Assembly (NCBI GenBank): GCA_900473915.1
Contig: UCNG01000012.1
Span: 1-64,000 of the forward strand
Length of the DNA stretch: 64,000 nucleotides
Reading direction: 5' to 3'
From: Hyphomicrobiales bacterium
GTDB taxonomy: Bacteria > Pseudomonadota > Alphaproteobacteria > Rhizobiales > Rhizobiaceae
The translations under genes and the position numbers were made by a program. Below are positions 12,054 through 48,822 of the stretch, in pieces; the first letter of the stretch is position 1; each line of letters begins with the position of its first letter. The notes under the pieces are model-generated. The model was not told the DNA's origin, searched no databases, and saw only the letters and a list, made by a program, of their open reading frames with translations.

Positions 12054-12081
12054 TATTCTATGTCCATTCAATATTGGTTAG

Positions 12082-12813: not shown

Positions 12814-12901
12814 GATTTCCCCGATTGGCTGCTACCTCTCAGATAGCGGCCAATCGTCAGAATTCGGTTAAAGCATGGGCGAAATCGATCGCTATATGCA
12901 A

Positions 12902-14124: not shown

Positions 14125-16233
14125 TCAGAAGCGGTAACGCAGGCTGCCGAAGACCTGACGGCCCTCCTGTTGATAGCAATAGCCCGCGGTGCAGACAGGG
14201 TCGCGATTGTCGAAGATGTTCTTGGCATTGACCTGCAACAGAACGCCTTCAAGCTTCGGATTCTGGTAGCCGAAATCATAGGAAACGGCGGCATCGACCA
14301 TGATGCGGGAATCGTTCTTGAAGCTGTTCTGGTCGTCGCCATAGCTGGAGCTGACGTAACGAATGCCGGAACCGAGACCGAGACCCGCAAGCACGCCGTT
14401 CTCGATCTTGTAGTTACCCCAGAGCGATAGCACATCGTTCGGCGTGCCTGAAAGCTCATTGCCGACGGTGCCTTCGGCGCCCTTGTCGATCTTGACCCGC
14501 AAGTGGGTGTAGGACGCGATAATGCCGATGCCATTGTCGAGTGTGGCATTGGCTTCAAGCTCAAAGCCGCGTGAGTTCAGGTCGAGCTGGCGCTGCTTGT
14601 TGATGCCTGAAGACGCATCGAGCACGATGCCGTCCTTCTGGTCGATATCGAACAGCGAAGCGCTGATGACGGCATTGTAGCCGGGAACCTCATATTTGAC
14701 GCCGATCTCTTTTTGCCGTCCGATGGTCGGATTGGCGACGCGCTTGTCGTCGCTCATGACGTCGTCATAGACGAATCCGATATTGGGAGAAAACGAGGTC
14801 GAGTAATTGACGTAGGGAATAAGACCCCATTCCGTCTTGTAAGCGACGCCGATGCGGCCCGAGAACGCGCTGTCGTCCTGTCTGGTATCGGTATAGTCAG
14901 CATCCGTGGTGGTCGATTTCACCCAGTCATAGCGGCCACTTCCGAAGACCGTCAGGTTGTCCCACTCGATCTGGTCATGCGCATAGATGCCGACCTGATT
15001 CATCTTCTGTGCACCGTTAAAGGGAATATCCATTGCACGGATGTCTTCAACGGACACATAGGAAAGGCCGCTATGGACCTTGTAGTCCGACCAGGCATAG
15101 TCGATACCGGCGATCGCCTTGTGGGTCAGGGCACCGGTTTCGAAATCGAACTGCGCCATCGTGTCGACGACAAAATTCTTCATGCGCTCCTTGTAATGTC
15201 CCCAATAGCGGGCAAGATCAATGCTGTCTTCGGGCAGATAATGGCCGCTATATTCGAGGTCGGCATCGACATCGCTGTAACGGACATTCTGGCGAACGGT
15301 CAGGAGATCGTTGAAGCGATGCTCGAATTCGTAGCCGATGCGGCCCTGCTTCTGCACGAAATCATTATAGTTCGGATCGCCTTCATAGAGGTTGGAAACC
15401 TCGCCATAAGACGGATTGTAGAATGCAGCCGTGCCGCCGGTTACTGAGCGGGAAAACTCGCTGAGGAATGTGAAGCGCGTGTCTTCATCCGGCTTTATGG
15501 TGAAGGACGGTGCAATGTAATATTTGTCGTCCGGATAGCCGGGTAGTTCCGTATCGCTTATGCGGCCGAGGCCGGTGATACGATAGAGGAACGTCTTGTC
15601 TTCATTGCCAGGCCCCGACAGGTCGAAAGCTGCCTGATAGCGATTGTGATTGCCGAAAAGCAATTCGACTTCGCGGAACTCTTCTTCCTTCGGGCGCTTG
15701 GTAACGACGTTGACAATGCCGCCGGGGCCGCTGACGCCATAAAGGGAGGAGGCAGGCCCCTTCAGTACCGTTATGCCCTCAATGCCGTAGGGCTCGGTTT
15801 TCAACCAGGCGGATGGGCCATTGATGATGCGCAGACCGTCGCGGAACATACCGGTGTAATAGGCCGGGAAGCCACGCAGATTGAATGCGTCGTAGCGTGT
15901 ATCGAAACCGAAATTGTTGGGATTGGCGCTCGCCGTGTAGCTCAATGCGTCATTGAGCGTGATCGGTTTCTGATCCTCCATCTGGCGCTGGGTGATAACC
16001 GAAATCGACTGTGGAATCCTGACGATATCCGTGTCGATCTTTGTGCCTTCGCGATCCTTCTTGGCCACATAGCCGTCCTGAACGAGGGTGTCGTTGCTCT
16101 GCGACTGGATCGTGACCGTGTCGAGAACGAGTGGCTGCGCGCTATCCTGAGCAAGCGAAATCGCAGTCGAAGCAAGAAGGGCGGTTGAGGCCAAAGCCAG
16201 AGACAGCCGACCGTGACGGGAATTGAAATGCAT
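14125..16233 (-). CDS. TonB-dependent siderophore receptor
   Basis: A 702-residue outer-membrane receptor. A signal peptide ends near SLAQ-DSAQ (residues 1-30). A TonB-box-like stretch (LDTVTIQ) follows. The plug domain has IPQSISVITQRQMEDQKP and FNLRGFPAYYTGMFRDGLR and GPGGIVNVVTKRP. The C-terminal beta-barrel ends in the expected aromatic SLRYRF. The profile fits the FhuA/FoxA/FpvA siderophore class; the ligand is not readable. The ATG at 16231-16233 has a GAGGGA ribosome site. Upstream are two related 15-bp sites (16295-16334). Confidence 0.94.
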   Translation of the reverse strand: MHFNSRHGRLSLALASTALLASTAISLAQDSAQPLVLDTVTIQSQSNDTLVQDGYVAKKDREGTKIDTDIVRIPQSISVITQRQMEDQKPITLNDALSYTASANPNNFGFDTRYDAFNLRGFPAYYTGMFRDGLRIINGPSAWLKTEPYGIEGITVLKGPASSLYGVSGPGGIVNVVTKRPKEEEFREVELLFGNHNRYQAAFDLSGPGNEDKTFLYRITGLGRISDTELPGYPDDKYYIAPSFTIKPDEDTRFTFLSEFSRSVTGGTAAFYNPSYGEVSNLYEGDPNYNDFVQKQGRIGYEFEHRFNDLLTVRQNVRYSDVDADLEYSGHYLPEDSIDLARYWGHYKERMKNFVVDTMAQFDFETGALTHKAIAGIDYAWSDYKVHSGLSYVSVEDIRAMDIPFNGAQKMNQVGIYAHDQIEWDNLTVFGSGRYDWVKSTTTDADYTDTRQDDSAFSGRIGVAYKTEWGLIPYVNYSTSFSPNIGFVYDDVMSDDKRVANPTIGRQKEIGVKYEVPGYNAVISASLFDIDQKDGIVLDASSGINKQRQLDLNSRGFELEANATLDNGIGIIASYTHLRVKIDKGAEGTVGNELSGTPNDVLSLWGNYKIENGVLAGLGLGSGIRYVSSSYGDDQNSFKNDSRIMVDAAVSYDFGYQNPKLEGVLLQVNAKNIFDNRDPVCTAGYCYQQEGRQVFGSLRYRF

Positions 16234-16758
16234 GTGTGTCCCTCGGATCAAAACGCTTCATGTCGCGAGAGCCCCATCTCGACGACATTAAATAGGAGTG
16301 TATCACTCAACTATAAAATGGAGTGTCAATGTCAACAATTAATAGCGAGCAATCGGAGGGGAAAACTCAGGGCAAGCTGGCGGCTGCGATCAATCTGCAA
16401 CACTTTGCTTGCGTCGCCGCAACCCAGTATGGCGGAAGTTGAGTGCCTGCGAACAAAGGTTGCAGGCGTCGTCCGGCAGCGAGACCGGTTGCCTGCCGAT
16501 GGACTCACACTATGGCGGCTTTGCCCAAGCTCGCCACTGCATGGCCGTTTCGCGACGGGTCTAAAGTCGACAGGTGCAAGAGAACCTCTGGCCCTGTCAG
16601 CTTGAGCGCGGTCTGCAGTAATCTTGATGCGAAGGCCAGTATATCCGCAGGATTAGCGCAGTTTTCCAAATTTCATTCGAACTATGGAAAGAACAATCTC
16701 GGTGGGCATTTTCATGCATGCTAGAAGTTGCCGAGTTCGTTTTTTGAGAGGATCCGAC
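16234..16758. other. Intergenic between receptor and flavin reductase genes
   Basis: The first 110 bases hold the receptor promoter and repeats. The rest has several overlapping short plus-strand frames without ribosome sites or family features. I see no RNA gene. Confidence 0.45.
16295..16334 (-). promoter_or_regulatory. Receptor promoter with two related operator-like sites
   Basis: On the minus strand two 15-bp sites TGAnnnTnACACTCC lie 25 bp apart (plus-strand 16320-16334 and 16295-16309); one also contains GAGTG-ATA-CACTC dyad symmetry. The distal one overlaps tandem TTGACA hexamers that could serve as -35. Both sites fit TGA-N9-TCC, one base off the RirA IRO consensus TGA-N9-TCA. Iron control through RirA is plausible but inferred. 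Confidence 0.45.
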
Positions 16759-17319
16759 ATGGGATTAACGGTGACATATCCGGGCGGCAGTGCGCCCCAC
16801 TATATCGATCAGTCGGAGGATATTGAGGTTTCTCCCGGCGAACTGAAGGCAGCAATGCGCCACCTCGCCGGTGGTGTCAGCGTCGTTACAGCGGGTTACG
16901 AGAATGGCCGCACCGGCGCGACAGTGACATCGGCTACGGCTCTTTCGGTCGAGCCGCCGACGATCATCGTCAACATCAATCGCGGTTCGTCAGTCTGGTC
17001 GGCAATTAGCCGCCACAACCATTTCTGCGTGAATGTGTTGTCTTCCGGCCAGCAGGCAATCGCAGATCGTTTTGCGGGCAAAGGTGGCATCAAGGGTGTT
17101 GAGCGCTACGCGAGCGCCGAATGGTATTCGCTTGAAAGCGGGGCGCTGGCGTTGGCGGGCTCACTGGCGTCAATCGATTGCGCGGTCGAAGACGTCATTG
17201 AGCGACACACCCATGCGATCGTGATCGGGCGCGTTCTGAAAATCGTAATCGGCTCGGGTGAACCGCTCCTTTATCACAATGGCGACTATCGCCTTCTCAA
17301 TGCACTTTCAGGCACTTAG
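16759..17319 (+). CDS. Flavin reductase-like FMN-binding oxidoreductase
   Basis: A 186-residue protein of the flavin-reductase-like (DIM6/NTAB, HpaC-like) family, which uses NAD(P)H to make free FMNH2 for partner monooxygenases. Key segments are MRHLAGGVSVVTAG, TGATVTSATALSVEPPTIIVNINRGSS and FCVNVLSSGQQAIADRFAG, ending with HNGDYRLLN. The ATG at 16759 has a GAGAGGA ribosome site. Three flavin-dependent luciferase-like monooxygenases follow within 12 kb, so this is the likely flavin supplier. It converges on and overlaps the Rrf2 gene by 12 bases. Confidence 0.88.
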   Translation: MGLTVTYPGGSAPHYIDQSEDIEVSPGELKAAMRHLAGGVSVVTAGYENGRTGATVTSATALSVEPPTIIVNINRGSSVWSAISRHNHFCVNVLSSGQQAIADRFAGKGGIKGVERYASAEWYSLESGALALAGSLASIDCAVEDVIERHTHAIVIGRVLKIVIGSGEPLLYHNGDYRLLNALSGT

Positions 17320-17772
17320 CTGCGCCCATGCGGGTGCAGAACCGTCATCTTCCAGCCCGCCATTGCGTGCAAACTGTTCGAGCGTCATTGTGTCAAGAAC
17401 GCCAGCGATTGCTTCGCGCACCAGCAGCATGGAACGGCGCACCTGACAGGCGCGATGATCCTCACAGTCGTCGCATGGCTCGTAAGCCGTGCGGCTTGCA
17501 CAGCGGATCGGCGCTAGCGGCCCGTCGAGAACGCGGACGACTTGCCCGATGGTAATCTCGGACGCCGGTTTGGAAAGACTGTAGCCGCCGCCGGGGCCTT
17601 TCTTGGACCGCAGAATCCCGTCATTGCGCAGCTCCAGCAGGATCGCGTCGAGAAACTTCTTGGAAATATTGTTCCGGGCGGCAATTTCGGCGACGAATGC
17701 GCTTTCACCCGGCTCAAGGGCGGCAAGGTGGGCCAGTGCCTTCAGACCATATTTGCCCTTCTTGGTAAGCAT
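17308..17772 (-). CDS. Rrf2-family regulator, CymR/IscR-like
   Basis: A 154-residue winged-helix regulator. The N-terminus MLTKKGKYGLKALAHLAAL and the GPGGGYSLSKPASEITIGQVVRVLDGPLAPI segment are diagnostic of Rrf2. Four cysteines (CASRTAYEPCDDCEDHRAC) lie in the region that holds the iron-sulfur ligands of IscR-type proteins. It is distinct from RirA. Its place beside sulfur-related monooxygenase and transporter genes suggests control of sulfur acquisition, like CymR in Bacillus; this is inference. Confidence 0.85.
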   Translation of the reverse strand: MLTKKGKYGLKALAHLAALEPGESAFVAEIAARNNISKKFLDAILLELRNDGILRSKKGPGGGYSLSKPASEITIGQVVRVLDGPLAPIRCASRTAYEPCDDCEDHRACQVRRSMLLVREAIAGVLDTMTLEQFARNGGLEDDGSAPAWAQLSA

Positions 17773-17866
17773 ACGCGCTCCGCCGATGTTTCGCCGGACT
17801 GCTTTTGCACGAATTCGAGAGAATTAATAGCCTGACATGATTGGCCGGGGGCCGCGCGCACGGGTT

Positions 17867-18100
17867 TCAGCCGATTTCGCGCGATGCGCTCGGTGTGTGA
17901 TAATAGAGCGGGAAGATCACCCCGTAGGGGATCGTCACGACATCGGCCATTTGGTCATCGGTCGGGCGATCATCGTCCGCCTGTTCACGATCTTGGTAAT
18001 CGGCGTGTACATCCGACAGTGCAAAGATGATTGCGCTCCACAGCAGGAACGGAAGTAGCGCGATGGCAATATAGACAAAGCTCATATCCATGTCATGCAT
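17867..18100 (-). CDS. Small membrane protein of unknown function
   Basis: A 77-residue frame with one N-terminal membrane span (about residues 7-28, FVYIAIALLPFLLWSAIIFAL) and an acidic tail. Alternative ATGs at residues 4 and 6 exist, and no strong ribosome site is visible. It is on the same strand as the Rrf2 gene. Possibly real; no family recognised. Confidence 0.4.
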   Translation of the reverse strand: MHDMDMSFVYIAIALLPFLLWSAIIFALSDVHADYQDREQADDDRPTDDQMADVVTIPYGVIFPLYYHTPSASREIG

Positions 18101-18435
18101 GGTGAGCTACCAAACGTTTGTCATCAAGGAACAGGCTTCTCAAAATCGGGTTTTTTGCAGTCGGATTTTGCTTTTAAGAGTTTCACAAGGGACGAGAATA
18201 ATTCCAGCATAGAAATAACACATTGTTTTCATTGATAATTTAAGAATTTTCGACGCAGTCGGTGCTGCAATTTTTAAAGTATATAAAAATTATAGAATTA
18301 CTTTTCTTATCGGCGGGCCGAGGGGTGCTTACGCTGGTCTCCATGGAAAACGGCTAGTTGCATAATGCGTTTGCAGCCCTGCCGGAAACCGCAGAAGGGA
18401 CGCGCGGCGTCGAAACTCTTCCTTGGAGAAATGAC
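18101..18435. other. Upstream region of the sulfur-scavenging cluster
   Basis: AT-rich at 18180-18310, with no supported gene. It probably contains the promoter of the eight-gene plus-strand block that starts at 18436. No specific operator could be identified. Confidence 0.4.
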
Positions 18436-19785
18436 ATGGGTGAACGAAAGCAAATCACGTTTGGCGTCATGCTGCAGGGGGCGGGCGGCCATATGAATGC
18501 GTGGAAGCATCCAAGCGGTCCTGCCGATGCGAGTACGAATTTCGAATTCTTCGTCAATGCCGCACGCAAGGCGGAAGCAGCCGGGATCGCCTTCGCCTTC
18601 GTTGCCGACGGACTTTACGTCAATGAGCAGTCAATACCGCATTTCCTGAACCGCTTTGAACCGATCTCGATCCTCTCGGCACTTGCTGCTTCCACCTCGA
18701 AAATTGGCCTCGTGGGTACGGTATCGACGTCCTACAGCGATCCGTTCACCATTGCGCGCCAGTTCGCTTCGCTGGACCTCATTTCCGGCGGACGCGCCGG
18801 GTGGAATGCCGTGACCTCACCGCTGGAAGGTTCTGGCCGCAATTACGGTCGCCCGCATCCGGAACACGAACTGCGCTATGAAATTGCGGACGAATATCTC
18901 GACGTTATCAAGGGGCTATGGGACTCCTGGGATGACGATGCTTTTGTTCGCGATCGCGAAACCGGCATCTATGTCGATAAAAGCAAATTGCACCGCATCA
19001 ATCACAAGGGACGTTTCTTCAATGTCGAAGGGCCGCTGAATATAAGCCGCTCACGGCAGGGGCAGCCGGTGGTGTTTCAAGCGGGATCATCGGATTCCGG
19101 AATCCGGCTGGCAGGAAAACATGCCGATGCGGTGTTTACGAACGGTGCCAGGATCGAGGAAGTACAGGCTTTCTACCGGCAGGTAAAACAAAGCGCCGTT
19201 GCTCAAGGGCGCAGTTCTTCCGATGTCGGGATTTTCCCCGGTATCGGCCCGATTGTCGGGCGCACGCAGGAAGAAGCTGAGGCAAAATATCAGGCGATCC
19301 GTAATCTGGTTTCGGTCGATGAGGCACTGCTTTATCTCGGCCGCTTCTTCGACCATCACGATTTCAGCATCTATCCGCTCGATGAGCCTTTCCCTGAACT
19401 TGGCGAAATCGGCAGGAACAGTTTCCGCGCCACGACAGATCGCATCAAGAAAACGGCGAGGGAAACCGGCGCAACATTGCGCGAGATCGCGCTTGATGTG
19501 GCAACCCCGCGCACCGCATTTATTGGCACGGCGGAAGCCATTGCTGACGAGCTGATAGATTGGGTGGAGACCGAAGCTGCCGATGGCTTCATTTTGGGCT
19601 TTCCCGTCATTGCGGAAGGCCTGGACGACTTCATCCGATACGTCCTGCCGATCCTCGAAGAGCGTGGCTATTTCACCCCGGAACTGCGCGGTGAAACGCT
19701 GCGCGATCATCTGGGATTGCCGTTCCGCGAAAGCCGCTACTCATCTGTGGCGGAACAACCGGCAAGCAAGGCCGCGCGAGCCTGA
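18436..19785 (+). CDS. Luciferase-like FMNH2-dependent monooxygenase (NtaA/SnaA/DszA type)
   Basis: A 449-residue flavin monooxygenase of the NtaA/SnaA/DszA/YxeK branch. Typical segments are GAGGHMNAWKHP at residues ~15-26, TVSTSYSDPFTIARQFASLDLISGGRAGWNAVTS, and the HxxHRINHKGRFFNVEGPLN and QPVVFQAGSSDSG motifs. The ATG at 18436 has a GGAGAA ribosome site and conserved length. It is followed by an M20 amidohydrolase and GNAT acetyltransferase, the gene set of YxeK-type C-S bond cleavage of N-acetylated S-modified cysteines. The actual substrate is inferred from context only. Confidence 0.88.
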   Translation: MGERKQITFGVMLQGAGGHMNAWKHPSGPADASTNFEFFVNAARKAEAAGIAFAFVADGLYVNEQSIPHFLNRFEPISILSALAASTSKIGLVGTVSTSYSDPFTIARQFASLDLISGGRAGWNAVTSPLEGSGRNYGRPHPEHELRYEIADEYLDVIKGLWDSWDDDAFVRDRETGIYVDKSKLHRINHKGRFFNVEGPLNISRSRQGQPVVFQAGSSDSGIRLAGKHADAVFTNGARIEEVQAFYRQVKQSAVAQGRSSSDVGIFPGIGPIVGRTQEEAEAKYQAIRNLVSVDEALLYLGRFFDHHDFSIYPLDEPFPELGEIGRNSFRATTDRIKKTARETGATLREIALDVATPRTAFIGTAEAIADELIDWVETEAADGFILGFPVIAEGLDDFIRYVLPILEERGYFTPELRGETLRDHLGLPFRESRYSSVAEQPASKAARA

Positions 19786-19797
19786 GGAGCCGGTTTC

Positions 19798-20997
19798 ATG
19801 GATGTCACCTCCCGATCCCGCAACAGGCTCGATGCAGCGAAAGAAAGCATTGGCGCGCATCTCGATGAATTCATAGCGCTTCGCCATGACATTCATCAGC
19901 ATCCGGAGCTTGCTTTCAACGAGCATCGCACGAGCCGTCTCGTTGCTTCAAAACTCGCCTCCTGGGGCTATGACGTCACGACGGGAATTGCAGGAACGGG
20001 TGTGGTGGCAACCCTGGCACGGGGGCGGGGGCAACGCCGTCTCGCGATCAGGGCCGACATGGATGCTCTTCCGATTGAAGAGGTAACTGGGCTTCCCTAT
20101 GCCAGCCGAAACAAAGGTGTAATGCACGCTTGTGGCCATGACGGGCACACGACGATCCTGCTCGCGGCGGCCCGATATCTGGCTGAGGAAGGGAACTTCA
20201 GCGGTACGCTTGATCTTGTCTTTCAACCGGCAGAGGAAATCGGTGCCGGAGCACGCAAGATGATAAGCGAAGGGCTTTTCGAGCAGTTTCCCGCCGATGC
20301 GGTGTTTGGATTGCACAACTGGCCAGGCATCCCCACAGGACAATTCGGGTTTGTCTCCGGGCCGGCTATGGCGTCAGTCGACAAGGCGGTCATCAAGGTC
20401 ATCGGCGAAGGCGGCCACGGAGCCGAACCGCATAATGCGGTCGATCCTATCGTAACCGCCGCGTCAATTATCACCACCCTGCAAAGCGTGGTTTCACGCA
20501 ACGTCGATCCACGCGAAATGGCGGTTGTCACGGTCGGCTCCATCCACGGCGGTGAAGCCTCAAACGTCATCCCTGGTTCGGTAGAGCTTCAACTGACGAT
20601 CCGCTCCTACAGCGAAGATGTGCGGCGCAGATTGCAGATACGCATCCCGGCGCTTGCCCGGGCGCAGGCGGAAAGCTTCGGCGCCGTTGCAGAGGTTGAT
20701 TATAGGCTGGGCTTTCCATCCGTCGTCAACCCGACCGCAGAAACGGCGTTTGCCCGCAAGGTTGCGGTCGATGCCCTTGGCGAAAGCAGTATCGACCAGA
20801 CATTTTTGCCCCGCACCGCCAGCGAAGATTTCGCCTTCATGCTGCAGGCAAAGCCCGGCAGCTACCTTTTCGTCGGTAACGGCGACAGTGCCCCGCTGCA
20901 CAGTGCCGAATACGATTTCAACGACCAGATCATCGCGCCAGCTGCCCTCTATTGGGTGCGGCTTGCCGAAACCTTCCTCAAAGAAAACAGACGGTGA
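19798..20997 (+). CDS. M20-family amidohydrolase (N-acyl amino-acid deacetylase)
   Basis: A 399-residue M20D metallo-hydrolase like HipO, YxeP or YtnL, which removes acyl groups from N-acyl amino acids. Metal and catalytic motifs are IRADMDALPIEE, HACGHDGHTT, PAEEIGAGA and TASEDFAFML; the dimerisation lid with GGHGAEPHNAVDP is present. It starts 12 bases after the monooxygenase and its stop is 5 bases before the acetyltransferase start. The combination suggests deacetylation of a product made by acetylation and oxidation. A plain hippurate-hydrolase role is the alternative. Confidence 0.88.
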   Translation: MDVTSRSRNRLDAAKESIGAHLDEFIALRHDIHQHPELAFNEHRTSRLVASKLASWGYDVTTGIAGTGVVATLARGRGQRRLAIRADMDALPIEEVTGLPYASRNKGVMHACGHDGHTTILLAAARYLAEEGNFSGTLDLVFQPAEEIGAGARKMISEGLFEQFPADAVFGLHNWPGIPTGQFGFVSGPAMASVDKAVIKVIGEGGHGAEPHNAVDPIVTAASIITTLQSVVSRNVDPREMAVVTVGSIHGGEASNVIPGSVELQLTIRSYSEDVRRRLQIRIPALARAQAESFGAVAEVDYRLGFPSVVNPTAETAFARKVAVDALGESSIDQTFLPRTASEDFAFMLQAKPGSYLFVGNGDSAPLHSAEYDFNDQIIAPAALYWVRLAETFLKENRR

Positions 20998-21002
20998 AGC
21001 TG

Positions 21003-21554
21003 ATGAGTGACAGTTTTTTATACACCGGCCCTCTCGATCCCCGTGCAAAGCCGCTCATTGACGAGCTTTTGTATGAATATGACAGCCGATACGGCACCTA
21101 TTTCAACGCGGAAGGTGCGGCGGCGGAAATGAACCGCTATCCGCCCGAAGCGTTCGCACCTCCGAGCGGCAATTTCGTGCTGCTGATCCGCAACGGGGAA
21201 ACCATTGGTGGCGGTGCCTTCAAGGCATTCGATGCGCGCACCGCGGAGTTCAAGCGCATTTGGACACGGTCGGACCTGCGACGGCAGGGATTGGCGCGCA
21301 AGCTGCTGGTCGAACTGGAAGAGCAGGCGGCGAGGCAGGGCTATTCCCGCATCTATCTGACGACCGGTTTTCGTCAACCCGAAGCCGTCAGTCTCTATCT
21401 CAACAACGGCTATACGGCGCTTTTCGATACGGGTGCAGACCCCGAGATTTACAAGACGCTGCCCTTTGAAAAGGAGATCGGCCATCTGGCCGCTTCACCG
21501 GGGCTCGGCACCGATCATCGCATCACGGACGGACAACATATCGCCAGCCGGTGA
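21003..21554 (+). CDS. GNAT N-acetyltransferase
   Basis: A 183-residue GNAT protein. The acetyl-CoA loop RSDLRRQGLARKLLVELEEQA and the following YLTTGFRQPEAVSLYLNNGYTAL (motif B) are typical. The ATG at 21003 is selected by tight spacing after the amidohydrolase; the longer frame overlaps it. In the Bacillus yxe and ytm operons a GNAT protein acetylates S-modified cysteines before oxygenation. This gene occupies the equivalent place, so the same role is proposed. Experimental substrate is unknown. Confidence 0.85.
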   Translation: MSDSFLYTGPLDPRAKPLIDELLYEYDSRYGTYFNAEGAAAEMNRYPPEAFAPPSGNFVLLIRNGETIGGGAFKAFDARTAEFKRIWTRSDLRRQGLARKLLVELEEQAARQGYSRIYLTTGFRQPEAVSLYLNNGYTALFDTGADPEIYKTLPFEKEIGHLAASPGLGTDHRITDGQHIASR

Positions 21555-21591
21555 ACCTCACCGCAAGGCGTGAAGGCCAAGGAATGACCAG

Positions 21592-23379
21592 ATGGCAGTA
21601 ACGACAGAATTCTCGAACGTGCAGATTGCAACCCGCCCGGTGGAGCGCAGGCAGGACTATTCGCGCTACAGGATCGTTCCGGCAAGACATCCGGCGCGTT
21701 TGGCCGGAAGCCTGTTCGCAGCCCTTGTGATCGGGCTTGTGCTCTATTCGATCTTCACCAATCCTCAATGGGGTTGGAACGTTTTTGCAGAATGGTTCTT
21801 TGCCGAACCGGTGCTCGTCGGCCTCGGGCGAACGCTGTTGCTGACGGCCCTCGCTGCTGTTTCAGGCTCCATTCTCGGCACATTGCTGGCGCTGGCGCGT
21901 GTCTCTAGGTCGCCGCTGCTTTCGGGCCTTTCCTGGGGTTACATCTGGCTGTTGCGCTCGATCCCGCTGATCGTATTGCTGCTCATCTTGAACAATCTGG
22001 GTTATCTTTATGCCAACATTACACTGAGTGTGCCGTTCACGGACCAGATATTGTTCAATTATCCCACCGTGCAATTGTTGACGCCGTTTGCAGCGGCCTT
22101 TCTAGGCCTGACGCTGAACCAGTCGGCATTCTTTGCCGAAATCGTGCGCGGCGGTATTCTTTCCGTTGATCAGGGCCAGCACGAAGCTGCGGCGGCGCTC
22201 GGCCTGCCGCGTAACCGCCAAGCCTTGCGGATTGTCTTGCCGCAGGCGATGCGCTCCATCCTTCCGACGGGTTTCAACGAGATCATCGGTCTCGCCAAAG
22301 GCACGTCCATGGTTTACGTGCTGGCCCTGCCGGAACTGTTCTACACGGTTCAGGTGATCTACCGGCGCAATCTGGAAGTTATCCCGCTGCTGATGGTGGC
22401 AACCGTCTGGTATCTGGTCATCATGACCGTGCTTTCGGTGGCGCAATATTACATCGAACGTTATTTCGCCAAGGGTGCGCTTCGCAATCCGGTTTCCCTG
22501 CCGTTCGTGGCATTCCTTCAGCGCTTCAAGCGCCACTCGCTTCCGTTACCGGCGTCAACCGGGCAGGTGCAGCGTGCAGTCCCCGTCGCCGGTTTTCGCG
22601 ATGCCGGTACCGTGTCTGCGGGCGCACCAATCCATATTCATGACATTTCCAAGCGGTTCGGCACGAATACGGTGTTGAAGCATGTGGAACTGTCTATTCC
22701 GGCTGGCAGCGTGACGGCAATTCTTGGTCCGTCAGGTTCCGGCAAGTCCACGCTGCTGCGTTCGATCAATCATCTGGAGCGCGTGGATGAAGGCTTCATT
22801 TCCGTCGATGGCGCATTGGTCGGTTATCGTCAGGATGGAGACACGCTTTATGAGCTGAAGGAGAAGGACATCCTCAAGCGTCGCGCCGATATCGCGATGG
22901 TGTTCCAGAACTTCAATCTCTTTCCGCACATGACGGTGGTTGAAAACATCATTGAAGCACCGATCCAGGTGCGTGGCCTTTCACGCGATGCGGCGGTCCA
23001 GCTGGCGCGCGATCTGCTGGCTCGCGTCGGCCTAGGCGACAAGGCGGAAGCCTATCCGCGCCAATTGTCCGGCGGACAGCAGCAACGCGTGGCGATCGCC
23101 CGGGCATTGGCGTTGCGCCCCAAGGTCATCCTCTTTGACGAGCCGACTTCGGCGCTCGATCCGGAACTGGTTGGTGAAGTTCTCGACGTCATCAAGGAAC
23201 TTGCCCGCACCGGGACCACGCTTGTCATCGTCACGCATGAGATCGGCTTTGCACGTGAAGTGGCCGATACGGTCGTCTTCATGGAAGCCGGGCAGATCGT
23301 AGAAGCCGGTCCGCCGTCCCGCATTTTCAACGACGCGCAGCATCCGCGCACACGTGAATTTCTAGCCAAGGTTCTTTGA
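21592..23379 (+). CDS. Fused polar amino-acid ABC permease-ATPase
   Basis: A 595-residue protein joining two normally separate ABC subunits. Residues ~35-300 are a HisM/TcyL-type permease (several spans; EAA-like loop GQHEAAAALGLPRNRQALRIVLPQAMR). Residues ~343-595 are a GlnQ/TcyN-type ATPase with Walker [10 protein letters not shown] (~378-386), Q-loop MVFQNFNLFPH, signature LSGGQQQRVA (~490) and Walker [11 protein letters not shown] (~515). A ~40-residue linker joins them. A homodimer would carry both permeases and both ATPases. It is flanked by the acetyltransferase and two binding proteins. Confidence 0.92.
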   Translation: MAVTTEFSNVQIATRPVERRQDYSRYRIVPARHPARLAGSLFAALVIGLVLYSIFTNPQWGWNVFAEWFFAEPVLVGLGRTLLLTALAAVSGSILGTLLALARVSRSPLLSGLSWGYIWLLRSIPLIVLLLILNNLGYLYANITLSVPFTDQILFNYPTVQLLTPFAAAFLGLTLNQSAFFAEIVRGGILSVDQGQHEAAAALGLPRNRQALRIVLPQAMRSILPTGFNEIIGLAKGTSMVYVLALPELFYTVQVIYRRNLEVIPLLMVATVWYLVIMTVLSVAQYYIERYFAKGALRNPVSLPFVAFLQRFKRHSLPLPASTGQVQRAVPVAGFRDAGTVSAGAPIHIHDISKRFGTNTVLKHVELSIPAGSVTAILGPSGSGKSTLLRSINHLERVDEGFISVDGALVGYRQDGDTLYELKEKDILKRRADIAMVFQNFNLFPHMTVVENIIEAPIQVRGLSRDAAVQLARDLLARVGLGDKAEAYPRQLSGGQQQRVAIARALALRPKVILFDEPTSALDPELVGEVLDVIKELARTGTTLVIVTHEIGFAREVADTVVFMEAGQIVEAGPPSRIFNDAQHPRTREFLAKVL

Positions 23380-23418
23380 ACCGGCGCTGGAAGAACTGAC
23401 ACAACAAGGAGACGGGAA

Positions 23419-24363
23419 ATGACATTTAACAGAAAGGCGGGCTACTGGACCGCCGGGATTATCGCAACTGCGTTGCTTGGCTCTGCCGCTGCGCACAGCG
23501 AGGGGAAATTTGATCTTAGCCCCGAACAGCCGAACCGGCTGCGCGTCGAGAAGATCGACAAGCGCGTGGAAGAGGTAAAGGATTTCAAATTCGTCAAGGA
23601 CGGTGTTCTGACCATCGGCATCAGCACCAGCGGGCATCTGCCGCTCCATGATTATGCGTCGGATTCCAAGACCGTCATCGGCTACGACGTCGATCTGGCG
23701 CAGATCATCGCCGATAGTCTGGGGCGCAAGCTGGAACTGGTTTCCGTGGCGTGGGCCGACTGGCCGCTTGGCCTTTCTTCGGGCAAGTTCGATGCGGTGA
23801 TTTCGAATGTGACGGTCACGGAAGAGCGCAAGGAGAAATTCGATTTCTCCACCTATCGCAAGGACGAGCTTGGCTTTTATGTGAAGTTCGACAGCAAGAT
23901 CGGCGAGATCAAGTCTCCGGCTGATATTGCGGGCCTCAAGATTATCACCGATGCAGGCACCAATCAGGAGAAAATCCTGCTGGAATGGGACCGCCAGAAC
24001 GTGGCTGCCGGTTTGAAAGCAGTTGAGGTGCAATATTACGATGACGATGCGGTCAAGGATCTGGCCATCCAGAGTGGTCGGGCCGACGCCGTATTCAGCG
24101 TCAATGCGACGCAAGCCTATTCCGCTGGCATTAACGGCAAGACGAGGCTTGCCGGCACGGTGAGCGGCGGCTGGCCGATCACAGCTGAAATCGCCGTCAC
24201 GACGCGCAAGGGAAGCGGCCTTGCTCAGCCGTTGACCAACGTTCTAAACGATCTGATCGCAAGCGGCGCGTATCAGAAGGTTCTCGATACCTGGAACCTT
24301 GGACCAGAAGCCATCACCGAAGCCAAAACCAACCCGCAGGGCCTGCCGAAAAGCGGTTCCTGA
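23419..24363 (+). CDS. Periplasmic amino-acid-type binding protein 1
   Basis: A 314-residue solute-binding protein of family 3 (PBPb). A signal peptide covers residues ~1-28 (ending AAAHSEG). The binding fold shows VLTIGISTSGHLPLHDYASD, YDVDLAQIIADSLG, GKFDAVISNVTVTEERKEKFDFSTYR and DAGTNQEKILL. It is 39 bases downstream of the fused permease-ATPase and paralogous to the next gene. A DLSPEQ...R segment after the signal peptide is shared by both. Ligand presumably a sulfur amino acid derivative. Confidence 0.9.
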   Translation: MTFNRKAGYWTAGIIATALLGSAAAHSEGKFDLSPEQPNRLRVEKIDKRVEEVKDFKFVKDGVLTIGISTSGHLPLHDYASDSKTVIGYDVDLAQIIADSLGRKLELVSVAWADWPLGLSSGKFDAVISNVTVTEERKEKFDFSTYRKDELGFYVKFDSKIGEIKSPADIAGLKIITDAGTNQEKILLEWDRQNVAAGLKAVEVQYYDDDAVKDLAIQSGRADAVFSVNATQAYSAGINGKTRLAGTVSGGWPITAEIAVTTRKGSGLAQPLTNVLNDLIASGAYQKVLDTWNLGPEAITEAKTNPQGLPKSGS

Positions 24364-24398
24364 GCCGAAGGGCGAGGGGCGGGTCAGCTTGAGGGGAC

Positions 24399-24412
24399 GC
24401 GGGCTGGCCCGC
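24399..24412 (+). terminator. GC hairpin between the two binding-protein genes
   Basis: GCGGG-ctgg-CCCGC is followed by ATATTTCTG. It may stabilise the upstream binding-protein mRNA or attenuate the downstream one. The stem is short. Confidence 0.3.
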
Positions 24413-24440
24413 ATATTTCTGTAATCCTGGAGAAAGTTAC

Positions 24441-25370
24441 ATGAGAGCTGGAGCTCTGCTGATTGCTGCCCTTGCATGGGCGACTTTCCCGGTTCTGACT
24501 GCCATGGCTGAGGATGGTTTCGACCTCTCACCCGAGCAGACTGGCCGTATTCACGCAAAGAAGAACGACGCTGCAGTCGCAGCTATTCCCGCCGACTTCA
24601 AATTCGTCACATCCGGCAAATTTACCGTGGCCGTGGCGCCCGGCGGCCCACCACTGGCAACCTATGCCACGGACGCGAGAACCGTTGTCGGTGCCGACCC
24701 GGAATATGCTTCAGCAGTCGCCGAAAGCCTGGGCCTTGAGCTGCAACTTGTTCCAGTCGCGTGGATCGACTGGCCGCTTGGGTTGGCTTCCGGCAAGTAT
24801 GATGCCGTCATTTCCAATGTCGGCGTGACCGAGGAACGCAAGGAAAAATTCGACTTTTCTACATATCGGCAGGGCGTGCACGGGTTCTTTGTCAAGTCGG
24901 ACAGTCCAGTCACCTCCATCAAGGAGCCGAAGGATGCCGCAGGCCTGCGCATCATTGTTGGCGCGGGGACCAATCAGGAGCGCATTCTCGTCAAATGGAG
25001 TGAGGAGAACGTTGCCGCGGGCCTGAAACCGATCGAACTGCAATATTACGACGATGAAGCCGCTAGCCTGCTCGCGCTCCGGTCCGGACGCGCTGACGTC
25101 ATCGTGCAGCCGCATGCGCAGCTCGTTTTCATTGCTGCGCGCGACAAGAATATCAAGCGGGTCGGAACCCTGAGCGCCGGGTGGCCGGATCGTTCCGATG
25201 TCGCGATCACTACTCGCAAGGGCAGTGGTCTGGCCGATGCGCTGACGATTGCCACCAATGGCCTGATTGACGACGGAACCTATGCCGAAATTCTAAAGCG
25301 CTGGCACTTGCAGGAAGAAGCGCTGTCGCGTTCCGAAACCAATCCGCCTGGTCTGCCGAAATTCAACTGA
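24441..25370 (+). CDS. Periplasmic amino-acid-type binding protein 2
   Basis: A 309-residue paralogue of the preceding gene, with a signal peptide ending near AMAEDG. It shares the FDLSPEQ motif, the GKYDAVISNVGVTEERKEKFDFSTYRQ block, the GAGTNQERIL loop and the C-terminal NPPGLPKFN. Two tandem binding proteins feeding one permease suggest two related ligands or affinities. The residues that differ in the ligand pocket cannot be judged by eye. Confidence 0.9.
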   Translation: MRAGALLIAALAWATFPVLTAMAEDGFDLSPEQTGRIHAKKNDAAVAAIPADFKFVTSGKFTVAVAPGGPPLATYATDARTVVGADPEYASAVAESLGLELQLVPVAWIDWPLGLASGKYDAVISNVGVTEERKEKFDFSTYRQGVHGFFVKSDSPVTSIKEPKDAAGLRIIVGAGTNQERILVKWSEENVAAGLKPIELQYYDDEAASLLALRSGRADVIVQPHAQLVFIAARDKNIKRVGTLSAGWPDRSDVAITTRKGSGLADALTIATNGLIDDGTYAEILKRWHLQEEALSRSETNPPGLPKFN

Positions 25371-25405
25371 GCCGACATGAGTTCGTTGCAACTGAAGGAT
25401 TGAAC

Positions 25406-26002
25406 GTGCCAAAAGCTGTCGAATATTTCTTTTCCATCGGATCGCCATGGTCATATCTCGGACTGGATACTCTGGAAGAGCTGGCCTCAAGGCATCTGGT
25501 TGAAATCAAGCCCCATCTGGCCACTATCATCGAGGAGAATGGCGGAATATTCGCCAAAAATCGCCCTGATGCTCGCCGCGCCTATGGCGCTCGTGACCTG
25601 AAGCGGTGGGCCAGATTTCGCGGCAAGCCGCTGCTGCTAGAAAATCGTCCGGCGCTTGGCGACCCGACGCCAGCTTCCTTTTTGGTCATTGCTGCGTATC
25701 TTGACGGGGAAAACTGGTTTCAGCTTGTCCGGGCGTTGCAACATGCTTTCTGGGAAGAGGCGAAGGACATTGGACAGCCTGAAGTCCGCCGTGCTGTCGC
25801 CGATGCTGCCGGCTTCAACGGAGCTTATCTTCTGTCGCGTGAACAGGACGGGGATGTTCAAGAAAAATGGCGAAGTGATCGCGAGACGGCCACCGAAAGA
25901 GGCGTCTTCGGGTTTCCGACCTACATCTACGAGGATGAAATCTACTGGGGACAGGACAATCTCGGCTTCCTGGCAAGCCACCTGCGCGGCGAGATTCCGT
26001 AA
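25406..26002 (+). CDS. DsbA-family / 2-hydroxychromene-2-carboxylate isomerase-like protein
   Basis: A 198-residue thioredoxin-fold protein like kappa-class GST and HCCA isomerase: VEYFFSIGSPWSYLG at the N-terminus with Ser in the active-site position, then an all-helical insertion, and ERGVFGFPTYIYEDEIYWGQDNLGFL with the cis-Pro motif. A GTG at 25406 with GAAGGA six bases upstream is preferred. It is the last gene of the plus-strand block. It may use glutathione on a product of the monooxygenase pathway; that is a guess from position. Confidence 0.8.
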   Translation: MPKAVEYFFSIGSPWSYLGLDTLEELASRHLVEIKPHLATIIEENGGIFAKNRPDARRAYGARDLKRWARFRGKPLLLENRPALGDPTPASFLVIAAYLDGENWFQLVRALQHAFWEEAKDIGQPEVRRAVADAAGFNGAYLLSREQDGDVQEKWRSDRETATERGVFGFPTYIYEDEIYWGQDNLGFLASHLRGEIP

Positions 26003-26020
26003 CCGCAGGCGACGTGAAAC

Positions 26021-26043
26021 GCCACCGGATACTCTCCGGTGGC
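26021..26043. terminator. Bidirectional hairpin between convergent genes
   Basis: A perfect 9-bp stem GCCACCGGA/TCCGGTGGC with a 5-nt loop lies between the stops at 26002 and 26053. No long T-run follows. Position supports a terminator for both sides. Confidence 0.6.
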
Positions 26044-26052
26044 GAAGCATCA

Positions 26053-26505
26053 TCATGCGGCGACAATACCGTCGTTGGGAGCGGGCAGTTCAAAAAGGCG
26101 GGCTCCGTTTTCTGTTCCCTTTTCCTCATAACCGATAATCTTGAACCACTTCACGATATCGGAACGATCAAGCCAGCTTCGCGAATGGACGGGCAGATCG
26201 CCCGCCAGAGCCTGAATCTGCCGTATATGCTGTTTGCAGAAGCGCACGGTGTTTCGGTTGAAGAACTCTTCCTTCGCGGCAAAAAGCGTGTCGGTAGCGC
26301 CTTCGCCCTGGTTCCAGGCGATGATCGCTACCACCTTGTCATTCTGCAGCAAAGCGTGCGCTCGACCCTCCCGCAGATTCATCATCAGATTATCATAAGC
26401 GGTTTTGGTATCCTTGCCGGCGGCGATATACTCAATCGTCATGCGCCTTGAAAGGTCGTGAAAAACGCTTTCAAGATCACCGACAGTCGCTGTGCGTGCC
26501 TTCAT
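26053..26505 (-). CDS. GNAT-like acetyltransferase
   Basis: A 150-residue protein with a GNAT-like outline: MKARTATVGDLESVFHDLSRR at the start, HALLQNDKVVAIIAWNQ in the central strand, and WLDRSDIVKWFKIIGYEEKG near the C-terminus (the NxxxxKxFxKxGY-like region). The acetyl-CoA loop is not obvious, so this is tentative; similar sequences occur in phage genomes. The ATG at 26503-26505 has a strong GGAGGT site. It lies between convergent and same-strand genes with hairpins on both sides, so it is likely monocistronic. Confidence 0.6.
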   Translation of the reverse strand: MKARTATVGDLESVFHDLSRRMTIEYIAAGKDTKTAYDNLMMNLREGRAHALLQNDKVVAIIAWNQGEGATDTLFAAKEEFFNRNTVRFCKQHIRQIQALAGDLPVHSRSWLDRSDIVKWFKIIGYEEKGTENGARLFELPAPNDGIVAA

Positions 26506-26531
26506 TTTTCTGACCTCCCGTCGTTTCACTC

Positions 26532-26554
26532 CTGTCGCGTGAAAAACGCGACAG
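26532..26554. terminator. Hairpin upstream of GNAT-like gene
   Basis: A perfect 9-bp stem CTGTCGCGT/ACGCGACAG with a 5-nt loop. On the minus strand it follows the monooxygenase gene that ends at 26647, so it could terminate that transcript. No T-run. Confidence 0.45.
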
Positions 26555-26646
26555 CGTCATATTGGCCATTTTGAACCCTGGCATTCAACATGAAAAGCCC
26601 CGTACCGGTTCCGGCCTGACGAGAGGAATGCGGTCACGAGGGAAAG

Positions 26647-27651
26647 TCAGGCCGCGATCGCCGATCGTGCCGCCGCCAGTAGCTCGATCGTTCGCAGGCG
26701 ATGCGCACCGTCGGTCAGGGGGCAATCCACCACAAATTCCTCCACGCCGTATTCCCGATGAAGACGATTGAATTGCGCCTGGATTTTTTGCGGTGTCCCA
26801 CGAATGACCCGCGGGGTGCGTTCCTCGATCTTGTAGCGGCTTGCTCCTGCCTGGCGAACATAATCGAGCGCGAGTTCCCTGCTGCCGACATTGACTGCTT
26901 GCCCGCCTTCGATCTCGACGCGGAACAGCCGGATATCGCTCGCGAGTTTCTCGGCCTCTGCTTCAGTCTCTGCCGCGACGATGCCCACGGCGAGAAGTGC
27001 GGATTTGCCGGTCTCCCTGCGGTAAGCATCCAGGGCTCGGGCAATGTCGGCTTCATCGCCATGTAGATGTCCCGCATAGACAAAGTTCCATCCACGCTCT
27101 GCGGCAAGCCTCGCGCTTTCGACGCTGGCGCCAAGCAGAAAGCGCTGAGGCGCTTCAGGCGGGAGGGGATAGGCGGCGAGGCTGTCTTCCGGTTTGGGGG
27201 CTTCCTTGTCAGGGTGGCGCAGAAAACCGTCGAGCTCATCAAGCTGCTGTTCGAAAGAGGGTTTGCGCTCAAGGTCGTATGCGCCCTGCAATGCGCGGGT
27301 TGAGAGCAGCAAACCGCCCGGCGCCTTGCCCACGCCCAGATCTACGCGCCCCGGCGCCAAGGAAGCCAGAAGGTTGAAACTCTCGGCGACCTTATAGGCG
27401 CTATAGTGCTGAAGCATGACGCCCCCGGAGCCGATCTTAATCCGCTCCGTCCGGGCGAGAAGAAAACCGATCAAGATTTCCGGCGCGGAACTCGCGAGGC
27501 CCGGAGTATTGTGATGCTCGGCGACCCAGAAACGCCGAAATCCGGCTTTCTCCGCCAACTGCGCCAGCGCAACCGTGCGGTTCAGTGCATCGTTCGCCGT
27601 TTCATCGCCGTGAATCGGGCTCTTGTCGAGAAAACTCAGGGCGTAGGGCAT
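26647..27651 (-). CDS. Luciferase-like monooxygenase (MsnO8-type)
   Basis: A 334-residue LLM flavin-dependent oxidoreductase. Recognisable are ALSFLDKSPI near the N-terminus, GFRRFWVAEHHNTPGLASSAPEILIG, and GSGGVMLQHYSAYKVAESFNLLASLAPGRVDLGVGKAPGG, the typical group of the luciferase-like MsnO8/YhbW branch. The ATG at 27649-27651 has a GAGGA site. It is divergent from the next LLM gene, with 174 bases between them. Its position next to the sulfur cluster suggests a related role, which is inferred. Confidence 0.86.
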   Translation of the reverse strand: MPYALSFLDKSPIHGDETANDALNRTVALAQLAEKAGFRRFWVAEHHNTPGLASSAPEILIGFLLARTERIKIGSGGVMLQHYSAYKVAESFNLLASLAPGRVDLGVGKAPGGLLLSTRALQGAYDLERKPSFEQQLDELDGFLRHPDKEAPKPEDSLAAYPLPPEAPQRFLLGASVESARLAAERGWNFVYAGHLHGDEADIARALDAYRRETGKSALLAVGIVAAETEAEAEKLASDIRLFRVEIEGGQAVNVGSRELALDYVRQAGASRYKIEERTPRVIRGTPQKIQAQFNRLHREYGVEEFVVDCPLTDGAHRLRTIELLAAARSAIAA

Positions 27652-27825
27652 GGGGTCCTCATTGGAAGGCTTGAACAATGAGTAATCTATAATTTTTATA
27701 TACTATTGAATCGAGCAACGATGTTCCAATATTCCCACGCTCATTAAACGAACATGCCGTGCAAATCGGCAGGCAAGGCAGCACCCTGAAAGGAGAACAT
27801 TCAACAGGTCAGTCGGATTCCTTTC

Positions 27826-28902
27826 ATGCCGTTATCGCATATTGAACATTTCGCATTCCTCACACCCGGAAGCTATCGCGATGACGATCCCGGCAGGGGA
27901 TTGGAGGAAACGCTTCAGCTTCTGGAGCATGGCGAAGCTCTGGGTTATGACAGTGCGTGGGTGCGCCAGCGGCATCTCGAACGCGGCATTTCTTCCGCCG
28001 CGACCTTTCTTGCCGCCGCGACGCAACGGACAGGCAGGATCGGCCTTGGGACCGCCGTCATTCAACTGGGATACGAAAATCCTTTTCGCCTCGCGGAGGA
28101 CCTTGCCACCGTCGATGTGCTTTCGGGAGGGCGCCTGAATATTGGCGTCTCGGCTGGCCCGCCGCCTTTCGCGCAGCTGATTTCCGGCTATACCGATCAG
28201 GCCCCGCAGGCCGATTATGGTCACGGTCGCGCAGAAAAGCTGGCACTGGCCCTCCGCTCGGAACCCTTGTCAGACGCAAGCGAGGCAGGAAATGCCGCCG
28301 GTGCGCAAGTGCCGCGCCTCCGTCCGTTCGCGAGCGGGCTGACCGATAGGCTCTGGTATGGCGGTGGATCGCAAAGCTCGGCGCGCTGGGCAGGGAGGGC
28401 CGGTTTCAATCTTCTGACCGGCAATGTCATCAGCGGCGAGAACACCGATGACTTTCTGGCCGCGCAGCGCGCCCTGATCGAACGCTTTCGCGCCGAGTGG
28501 TTACCTGAGCGGCAGCCGCGCATAGGGTTGGGACGTGTCATTTTGCCGACCGACAGCGCTACCCCCGCGGCGCGGCGTCGCTATGAGGATTATGCAGCGG
28601 AGCGAAACAGACGTGTCGGTGTGCCGCACGGGCCACGGCGCACTCTCTATTTGCAGGATGCGGTTGGCACGGCAGAAGAGATAGTGGAAATACTGGCACG
28701 TGACCCCGTACTGCCGCTCGTCTCAGAATTGCGGCTGGAACTGCCCTATGAGTTCCCCGCTGAAGATTATATCCAGATCATTGAAGATTTCGCTCTTATC
28801 GCACTGTTGTCGCGTCGCCTGCAGCCAAAACCGGTGCTCCGCCACGCTGAACAGGAGAGAATCTCTTCTCGCGAGGCTCGCCGTACTTTGGGATCATTCT
28901 AA
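27826..28902 (+). CDS. Luciferase-like monooxygenase
   Basis: A 358-residue LLM oxidoreductase with IEHFAFLTPGSY at the start, GYDSAWVRQRHLERGISSAATFLAAA, GLGTAVIQLGYENPFRLAEDLATVDVLSGGRLNIGVSAG and RLWYGGGSQSSARWAGRAGFNLLTG. It differs from the other two LLM proteins in the window. The ATG at 27826 has no clear ribosome site right before it; an AAGGAG lies ~35 bases upstream, so the start is uncertain. A strong hairpin follows the stop. Confidence 0.85.
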   Translation: MPLSHIEHFAFLTPGSYRDDDPGRGLEETLQLLEHGEALGYDSAWVRQRHLERGISSAATFLAAATQRTGRIGLGTAVIQLGYENPFRLAEDLATVDVLSGGRLNIGVSAGPPPFAQLISGYTDQAPQADYGHGRAEKLALALRSEPLSDASEAGNAAGAQVPRLRPFASGLTDRLWYGGGSQSSARWAGRAGFNLLTGNVISGENTDDFLAAQRALIERFRAEWLPERQPRIGLGRVILPTDSATPAARRRYEDYAAERNRRVGVPHGPRRTLYLQDAVGTAEEIVEILARDPVLPLVSELRLELPYEFPAEDYIQIIEDFALIALLSRRLQPKPVLRHAEQERISSREARRTLGSF

Positions 28903-28912
28903 TCCCGGGGTA

Positions 28913-28942
28913 GCTTCAGTTCACGGTAATGTGAACTGAAGC
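28913..28942. terminator. 12-bp-stem hairpin after LLM gene
   Basis: GCTTCAGTTCAC/GTGAACTGAAGC, a perfect 12-bp stem with a 6-nt loop, begins 10 bases after the stop codon. A T-rich stretch lies ~12 bases further on. A good terminator candidate. Confidence 0.65.
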
Positions 28943-29174
28943 CGCTTAAAGGTCTTTATTTTGCCGTTTTCGCCGGAGTGCCGGGGCTTTTCAACGCCCA
29001 TCCATGCGCTAGTTCGTGGTGATCCGCAGTTGGTTTGCATCTACTGAGGCACAAGAGATATTTGAACTATGCTGGAGGTATGTGTATCGGGCGTATATGT
29101 TTTCCGTCTGCGTATTGCGGATTTTTTTCGGAAACACCTCAAAAGTCTTACCCACCAATCGGCAGGAAACGACA

Positions 29175-48812: not shown

Positions 48813-48822
48813 CGACGCGACT

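Follow-up and report, generated by a model that had tools for sequence, protein, structure and literature searches.

The window analysed here is a stretch of 64,000 nucleotides from a Hyphomicrobiales bacterium (GenBank assembly GCA_900473915.1, contig UCNG01000012.1, positions 1 to 64,000, forward strand), and the system under study is a cluster of genes around a flavin-dependent monooxygenase gene at 18436–19785. By sequence this monooxygenase is a homologue of CmoJ (YtnJ) of Bacillus subtilis, and the cluster is probably a proteobacterial version of the cmo-type (ytm) pathway for salvage of S-alkylcysteines, not of the yxe/scm pathway for S-(2-succino)cysteine (2SC). This reading is built on direct observations of the gene set, the homology and grouping of the CmoJ protein, the placement of an MsnO8-family protein (O8, encoded at 26647–27678) in a clade of CmoJ-linked enzymes, conserved linkage and co-occurrence; all reactions of the pathway are inferred by analogy with B. 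subtilis, as described in two papers (PMC10863075, PMC12757645). The genes had been named in a sequence-only reading of the window, and all were confirmed at their positions by the list of open reading frames (ORFs) and by family profile scans. Homology and conserved linkage support the proposal made there that S-modified cysteines are acetylated, oxygenated and deacetylated for salvage; its emphasis on the yxe operon and YxeK as template was not upheld, as the monooxygenase groups with YtnJ/CmoJ (57% identity, support value 100).

Identity of the monooxygenase

The monooxygenase was 56.8% identical to B. subtilis YtnJ/CmoJ over 421 residues. A 61-row tree was built from 24 of 80 homologous cluster loci (the best 80 of at least 588 confirmed relatives of the monooxygenase), the window, YtnJ and 35 other proteins. 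The window protein, the 24 cluster homologues, YtnJ and three further rows formed a 29-row clade (Shimodaira-Hasegawa-like approximate likelihood ratio test, SH-aLRT, 100) with the other 32 rows outside it, in a tree whose chosen outgroup was not split off by a single branch and in which some long branches met among the outer rows. Homology to CmoJ makes the ytm/cmo S-alkylcysteine pathway a better model for the cluster than 2SC breakdown.

YxeK was represented in the tree by a stand-in (L087), a paralogue from genome G005 (that of locus L034, titled Agrobacterium tumefaciens). Its direct neighbours are an MmgE/PrpD (YxeQ-type) gene and an amino-acid ATP-binding cassette (ABC) importer, and the ten ORFs scanned around it included neither a GNAT nor an M20 gene. 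The stand-in was 44.7% identical to the window monooxygenase and fell outside the CmoJ clade, and YxeK-based 2SC breakdown was dropped as the leading interpretation on this grouping. A cluster of yxe/scm type, with 18436–19785 as YxeK, is thus considered improbable. The scm operon likewise comprises a GNAT, a monooxygenase, an M20 protein and an amino-acid ABC importer, and the best solved relative of the window M20 protein is YxeP, though no YtnL structure competed for that place. The criterion of PMC9706529 is that at least three of YxeK, L, MNO, P and Q lie together in a cluster; L-, MNO- and P-like families are present here, and are equally parts of a cmo operon. Besides the grouping of the monooxygenase, two observations speak against a 2SC pathway: no YxeQ-type or lyase (2SL-type) gene was recognised among the cluster genes scanned, and YxeK works directly on N-acetyl-2SC (PMC9706529), yet an O8 gene occurs in all 80 loci and in all 25 CmoJ-bearing genomes of the sample described below.

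An ordinary monooxygenase of nitrilotriacetate, ethylenediaminetetraacetate (EDTA) or alkanesulfonate type with unrelated neighbours would be compatible with the family name (NtaA/DmoA) and with the top PDB match, 3sdo (661 bits), titled a nitrilotriacetate monooxygenase. Clustering with such enzymes, named beforehand as counting against salvage, was checked through PDB scores: YtnJ scored 552 bits, far above 7e36_B (nitrilotriacetate monooxygenase family, 299), DszA (269), riboflavin lyase (230), EDTA monooxygenase (214), an entry titled dimethyl-sulfide monooxygenase (212), an alkane monooxygenase (200) and SsuD (32). The neighbours are also not random, with GNAT and ABC genes linked in 80/80 and M20 genes in 67/80 of the best loci. 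This function was dropped on the scores, the title of 3sdo notwithstanding, and is regarded as highly improbable.

The O8 gene as candidate CmoO

In all 80 best loci an MsnO8-family gene lay directly upstream of the monooxygenase gene and on the same strand. No O8 gene occupies that place in the window, where the sole strong O8 match is 26647–27678 on the minus strand. Two O8 trees were made from 38 (first tree) and 31 (48-row tree) of the 80 loci together with the window and 16 other rows, rows shorter than 280 aa and identical rows being omitted; the 16 comprised seven generic paralogues and nine more, several of them CmoJ-linked copies from whole genomes. In the 48-row tree the window O8 fell within a clade of CmoJ-linked enzymes (bootstrap/SH-aLRT 100/99 for 34 rows, 97/95 for 8 rows), set apart from the generic MsnO8 paralogues (100/100), and its nearest row was L111 of Brucella pituitosa (72% identity). 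The first tree likewise set it with the CmoJ-linked enzymes and away from the generic paralogues. The gene is the probable CmoO sulfoxidase partner of CmoJ. It had been counted as one of two additional luciferase-like monooxygenases, which holds for the plus-strand gene (LLM2, without a Bacillus counterpart) and not for this one. On sequence comparison, two traits of the window are unusual: a displaced CmoO candidate from a lineage seen as a separate module in two other genomes, and the absence of the cluster, in three separate blocks, from a close relative (G416, below).

Linkage and co-occurrence

At the identity limits of the script, linkage to the monooxygenase gene in the best 80 loci was found for GNAT (80), ABC (80), M20 (67), LLM2 (65), a DSBA-like protein (22), flavin reductase (11) and Rrf2 (7); drawn from the best of at least 588 relatives, these counts speak for close relatives, and the lower ones are minima because some loci, including some scored for LLM2, end at contig edges. 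The GNAT count takes in genes between -4 and +8 kb of the monooxygenase gene with 55% identity or more, and that of flavin reductase those with 45% or more. The cluster exceeds chance, most of the set recurring around the monooxygenase in its 80 best relatives. The order O8-CmoJ-M20-GNAT-ABC-binding protein-binding protein-LLM2 was repeated in many loci of Rhizobiales and Burkholderiales, so the arrangement as such is not unusual, contrary to the suggestion that the gene order was non-standard.

Co-occurrence was scored, with limits fixed beforehand, in one draw of 297 genomes from the family of G001, a Rhizobium genome. CmoJ (E ≤ 1e-150) was present in 25 genomes, so the pathway is carried by a minority of those sampled, and O8 (E ≤ 1e-60) in the identical 25. 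LLM2 (E ≤ 1e-60) was matched in 18 genomes, all 18 of which also carry CmoJ; the DSBA-like protein (E ≤ 1e-50) in 19, with 12 inside the CmoJ set and 7 outside it; and a control, the GMC oxidoreductase from the flank of the window (E ≤ 1e-200), in 24, with 3 inside the set. O8 lay within 1.5 kb of CmoJ for 24 of 26 matches.

Several points weigh against a cmo-type assignment. Hypergeometric tails for co-occurrence with CmoJ (O8, 6.7e-37; LLM2, 1.6e-23; DSBA-like, 2.5e-10; GMC control, 0.33) ignore relatedness and block transfer and so overstate this evidence. The remaining two of the 26 CmoJ matches had no O8 within 1.5 kb: L169 in G570, where CmoJ and O8 are on different contigs, and L173, a second CmoJ match (56%) in G362, where another O8 lies some 8 kb off. 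The window O8 is only 44–61% identical to CmoJ-adjacent copies, and its closest relatives, in genomes G003 and G584, belong to a different module. Its proposed identity as CmoO is based on family, context and co-occurrence, in a comparison with CmoJ-linked and generic MsnO8 proteins, and YxeK was excluded through a stand-in chosen by gene context. The best PDB entry bears the title 'Nitrilotriacetate monooxygenase', and no redoxin (CmoI/YtnI) was recognised among the cluster genes scanned for families.

Mosaic structure and LLM2

Genome G416, whose GMC protein is 99% identical, is colinear with positions 9768–44270 of the window except for three blocks which it does not have: 16463–17866 (flavin reductase and Rrf2), 18177–26034 (CmoJ to the DSBA-like gene) and 26630–29055 (O8 and LLM2). 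A small ORF and a gene for a 158-aa protein are retained in G416 between the missing blocks, and no CmoJ, O8 or LLM2 match was found there at the thresholds used. The difference may be a gain in the window or a loss in G416. The 158-aa gene lay near the DSBA-like gene in 4/80 best loci, all titled Brucella, which hints at an older association.

In B. pituitosa (G003) the CmoJ cluster has an O8 of its own, and a second module about 21–27 kb from the CmoJ gene holds relatives of the window O8 (71% identity), LLM2 (79%) and flavin reductase (80%), along with another GNAT and a further luciferase-like gene, a TIGR03860 gene and an NMT1-type ABC importer. In G584 there is a matching O8-GNAT-LLM2 neighbourhood, with some 315 kb between it and CmoJ. 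The O8 and LLM2 ORFs of the window are transcribed away from each other across 147 bp, and no GNAT gene accompanies them. These findings raise the alternative of a mosaic, in which the flavin reductase, O8 and LLM2 genes belong to a second organosulfur module and have joined a CmoJ core. O8 would then work for LLM2 or on some other substrate, and CmoJ would depend on a CmoO encoded elsewhere in the genome or accept sulfoxides directly. In favour of this are the three blocks, which break up a stretch that is continuous in G416, and the setting of the closest O8 relatives: in both G003 and G584 they neighbour LLM2, another GNAT and further luciferase-like genes and lie apart from a CmoJ cluster that has an O8 of its own. 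We consider the mosaic rather unlikely, as the window O8 falls in the clade of CmoJ-linked enzymes; the survey covered the 64-kb window and cannot reveal another CmoO.

The B. pituitosa loci L121 and L122 (G003:C2:604000-642000) together show a region of about 30 kb rich in luciferase-like monooxygenases, with flavin reductase, GNAT and ABC importer genes; besides CmoJ it contains four TIGR03860 places above the cut-off and one below.

LLM2 reached no NCBIfam cut-off among the models listed, the best being TIGR04027 (111 of 413 bits). Together with a cmo-type pathway it is conceivable, though on the doubtful side, that S-adduct salvage includes LLM2 as a third, dedicated flavin monooxygenase with no Bacillus counterpart and, jointly, that the window captures two salvage modules fusing, with a diverged CmoO replacing the original. 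LLM2 might then, for example, oxidise S-substituents beyond the range of CmoO-CmoJ, or the released aldehyde. LLM2 is thereby exposed as a flavoenzyme family that is tied to the pathway and is a target for function assignment.

Layout and other parts of the cluster

Seven same-strand genes between 18436 and 26002, spaced 5–77 bp apart, have an operon-like layout and encode, in order, the TIGR03860 monooxygenase, the M20 protein, the GNAT, a fused permease-ATPase, two binding proteins and the DSBA/kappa glutathione S-transferase (GST)-like protein. They are flanked upstream by the flavin reductase and Rrf2 genes and downstream by the two luciferase-like genes, one on each strand (Table 1).

Table 1. 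Features of the cluster and its immediate surroundings.
Feature	Position	Strand	Evidence
Flavin reductase	16684/16759..17319	+	PF01613, 131 bits
Rrf2-family regulator	17308..17772	-	PF02082, 129.7 bits (cut-off 30); TIGR00738, 106.8 (cut-off 73.3)
Small ORF, hydrophobic N-terminus	17867..18100	-	Translation; resident gene, also in G416 (70% identity)
CmoJ-type C-S monooxygenase, NtaA/DmoA family	18436..19785	+	TIGR03860, 515.9 bits (cut-off 279.7)
M20 amidohydrolase, candidate N-acetylcysteine deacetylase (SndA/YxeP-like)	19798..20997	+	TIGR01891, 353 bits (cut-off 154)
GNAT acetyltransferase, candidate for SnaA role	21003..21554	+	PF00583, 53 bits
Fused permease-ATPase, amino-acid/cystine-type ABC importer	21592..23379	+	PF00528 and PF00005
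Binding protein 1, family 3	23419..24363	+	PF00497; best NCBIfam model, cystine binding protein, below cut-off
Binding protein 2, family 3	24441..25370	+	PF00497; best NCBIfam models below cut-off
DSBA/kappa-GST/HCCA-isomerase-like protein	25400..26002	+	PF01323; 0 Cys
Unclassified 158-aa gene	26053..26529	-	No Pfam or PHROG match; 92% identity in G416
CmoO-type flavin monooxygenase candidate, diverged lineage (O8)	26647..27678	-	MsnO8 family TIGR03558, 343 bits (cut-off 167)
LLM2, third luciferase-like monooxygenase, unnamed subfamily	27826..28902	+	PF00296

Acetyltransferase, M20 and cystine-type ABC genes are all clustered, as judged by family, the TcyN and cystine-binding models scoring under their cut-offs; the ATPase half of the fused importer was nearest to the TcyN model (318 bits, cut-off 406). 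The M20 protein was compared with YxeP, as had been proposed: this was its best solved relative (1ysj, 248 bits; no YtnL structure was among the entries listed), and the motifs HACGHD and QPAEE and two further His residues aligned with it. These residues we take to be metal ligands. N-acetylcysteine is deacetylated by B. subtilis ScmP, YhaA and YtnL alike (PMC12757645).

The DSBA-like protein, whose solved relatives are HCCA isomerases and kappa GSTs, was the only thioredoxin-fold protein among the cluster genes scanned. Lacking cysteine, it is not a CmoI-like redoxin, and a role for it as a thiol redoxin was ruled out; that it takes part in a glutathione-linked reduction of the sulfenic acid is speculation. 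The flavin reductase is 80% identical to the copy by the O8/LLM2 module of B. pituitosa.

The regulator had been described as an Rrf2 protein of the CymR family. It exceeded the cut-offs of both Rrf2 models, and the CymR identity was rejected because the score against the CymR equivalog NF047409 (81.9 bits) was below the cut-off of 195. Four Cys residues are present at positions 91, 100, 103 and 109. In all seven of the best loci with an Rrf2 gene a flavin reductase gene was also present. The Rrf2 gene adjoins and diverges from O8-CmoJ in four Agrobacterium loci (L034, L036, L038, L040); the small ORF at 17867–18100 separates it from the monooxygenase gene in the window. The regions upstream of Rrf2-linked genes were searched for palindromic operators. 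The AT-rich sites obtained were not convincingly shared; they scored above three shuffled controls per width, with several of the inputs near-identical.

Proposed pathway

In the account of PMC10863075 the substrate is N-acetylated, CmoO forms the sulfoxide, CmoJ breaks the C-S bond, and cysteine is obtained after reduction and deacetylation. PMC3862929 gives ytmI as an N-acetyltransferase, ytmO and ytnJ as monooxygenases, ytnI as a redoxin and ytnL as an aminohydrolase. By analogy, the ABC importer would bring in an S-alkylcysteine (possibly its sulfoxide), which the GNAT would acetylate on nitrogen. The CmoO-type enzyme (26647–27678) would turn the thioether into a sulfoxide, and the CmoJ-type enzyme (18436–19785) would split the C-S bond to an aldehyde and N-acetylcysteine sulfenic acid. 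The latter would be reduced to N-acetylcysteine, from which the M20 enzyme would remove the acetyl group to release cysteine. FMNH2 for the flavin monooxygenases would come from the flavin reductase, and the Rrf2 protein probably governs expression of the cluster.

Other genes in the window

On the minus strand at 59860–63906, some 31 kb away from the cluster, genes for a phosphotransacetylase and an FAD oxidoreductase accompany that of sulfoacetaldehyde acetyltransferase (Xsc; 998 bits, cut-off 676) in a set of taurine/sulfonate type. The stretch 5057–9509 holds genes of prophage type, among them those for a major head protein, a portal protein and an integrase. A TonB-dependent receptor at 14125–16251 (minus strand) scored 1012 bits with PRK14049, the model for ferrioxamine B receptors (cut-off 904), and adjoins an MFS transporter gene. 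A MetA-type homoserine acyltransferase at 48784–49743 scored 459.7 with the acetyl-type model (cut-off 460.5) and 402.9 with the succinyl-type model (cut-off 495).

Comparison with known systems

No description of a proteobacterial cmo cluster was found in a search of openly licensed papers. With the B. subtilis yxe/scm operon the window cluster shares its strategy and the GNAT/monooxygenase/ABC/M20 set, and differs in that its monooxygenase belongs to the CmoJ clade, a candidate CmoO-type enzyme is present, and no YxeQ-type or 2SL-type gene was recognised. These differences advise caution in calling such clusters 2SC pathways.

The second module of B. pituitosa (L121: O8b, GNAT2, LLM2, another luciferase-like gene, a TIGR03860 gene, flavin reductase and an NMT1-type ABC importer) supplies the closest relatives of the window flavin reductase, LLM2 and O8 among the loci compared. 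It is separate from the CmoJ core, and its GNAT and TIGR03860 genes are absent from the window cluster.

Related plasmid loci were also seen. Onion is rich in S-alkylcysteine sulfoxides, and plasmid pCB1A of Pantoea agglomerans (L125; source, Allium cepa) carries an MsnO8-M20-CmoJ-binding protein-GNAT-permease-ATPase-binding protein cluster. With the window monooxygenase as query, 83 Pantoea plasmid records gave a match of some kind at E ≤ 1e-60. A plasmid of Paenibacillus cellulosilyticus (L123, 4862–14085) carries four relatives of the monooxygenase (35–39% identity to the window protein) among extracellular binding proteins and an NADPH-dependent oxidoreductase.

In p42c of Rhizobium etli CFN 42 (L195) and similar rhizobial loci, a luciferase-like gene, CmoJ, M20, GNAT, ABC, two binding protein, a second luciferase-like and DsbA-family genes follow one another in one direction. 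The R. etli CmoJ has 81% identity to that of the window. In L195 the first luciferase-like gene, by its position an O8, shares the strand of CmoJ and comes before it, whereas the window O8 is found downstream of CmoJ and on the other strand; the R. etli cluster is followed by an MsuE-type FMN reductase gene, whereas the window reductase is a PF01613 protein encoded upstream. Beyond the R. etli cluster (11848–13000), in this one locus, lie genes for an alpha/beta hydrolase and, about 2 kb away, for an annotated gamma-glutamylcyclotransferase; the latter, an enzyme of glutathione catabolism, would be consistent with S-alkylcysteine being derived from glutathione conjugates.

The B. subtilis cmo (ytm) operon has a different gene order from the window and an unfused permease and ATPase, no counterpart of LLM2, and a LysR-type regulator (YtlI) where the window has an Rrf2 gene nearby; conversely, no CmoI redoxin, RibR or YtnM was recognised in the window cluster. 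LLM2, the kappa-GST-like protein and the flavin reductase are extras of the window. This variant is marked by its displaced and diverged CmoO candidate, by an LLM2 confined to CmoJ genomes in the sample, and by the genes for the kappa-GST-like protein, flavin reductase and Rrf2. Both systems have in common CmoJ or its homologue, a second luciferase-like flavoenzyme (CmoO, or its candidate in the window), a GNAT, an M20 deacetylase (a candidate in the window) and a cystine-type ABC importer with two binding proteins. The comparison would place the two-flavoenzyme, Pummerer-type cysteine dealkylation of B. subtilis, with a definite gene set and a candidate CmoO, in plant-associated and soil Proteobacteria.

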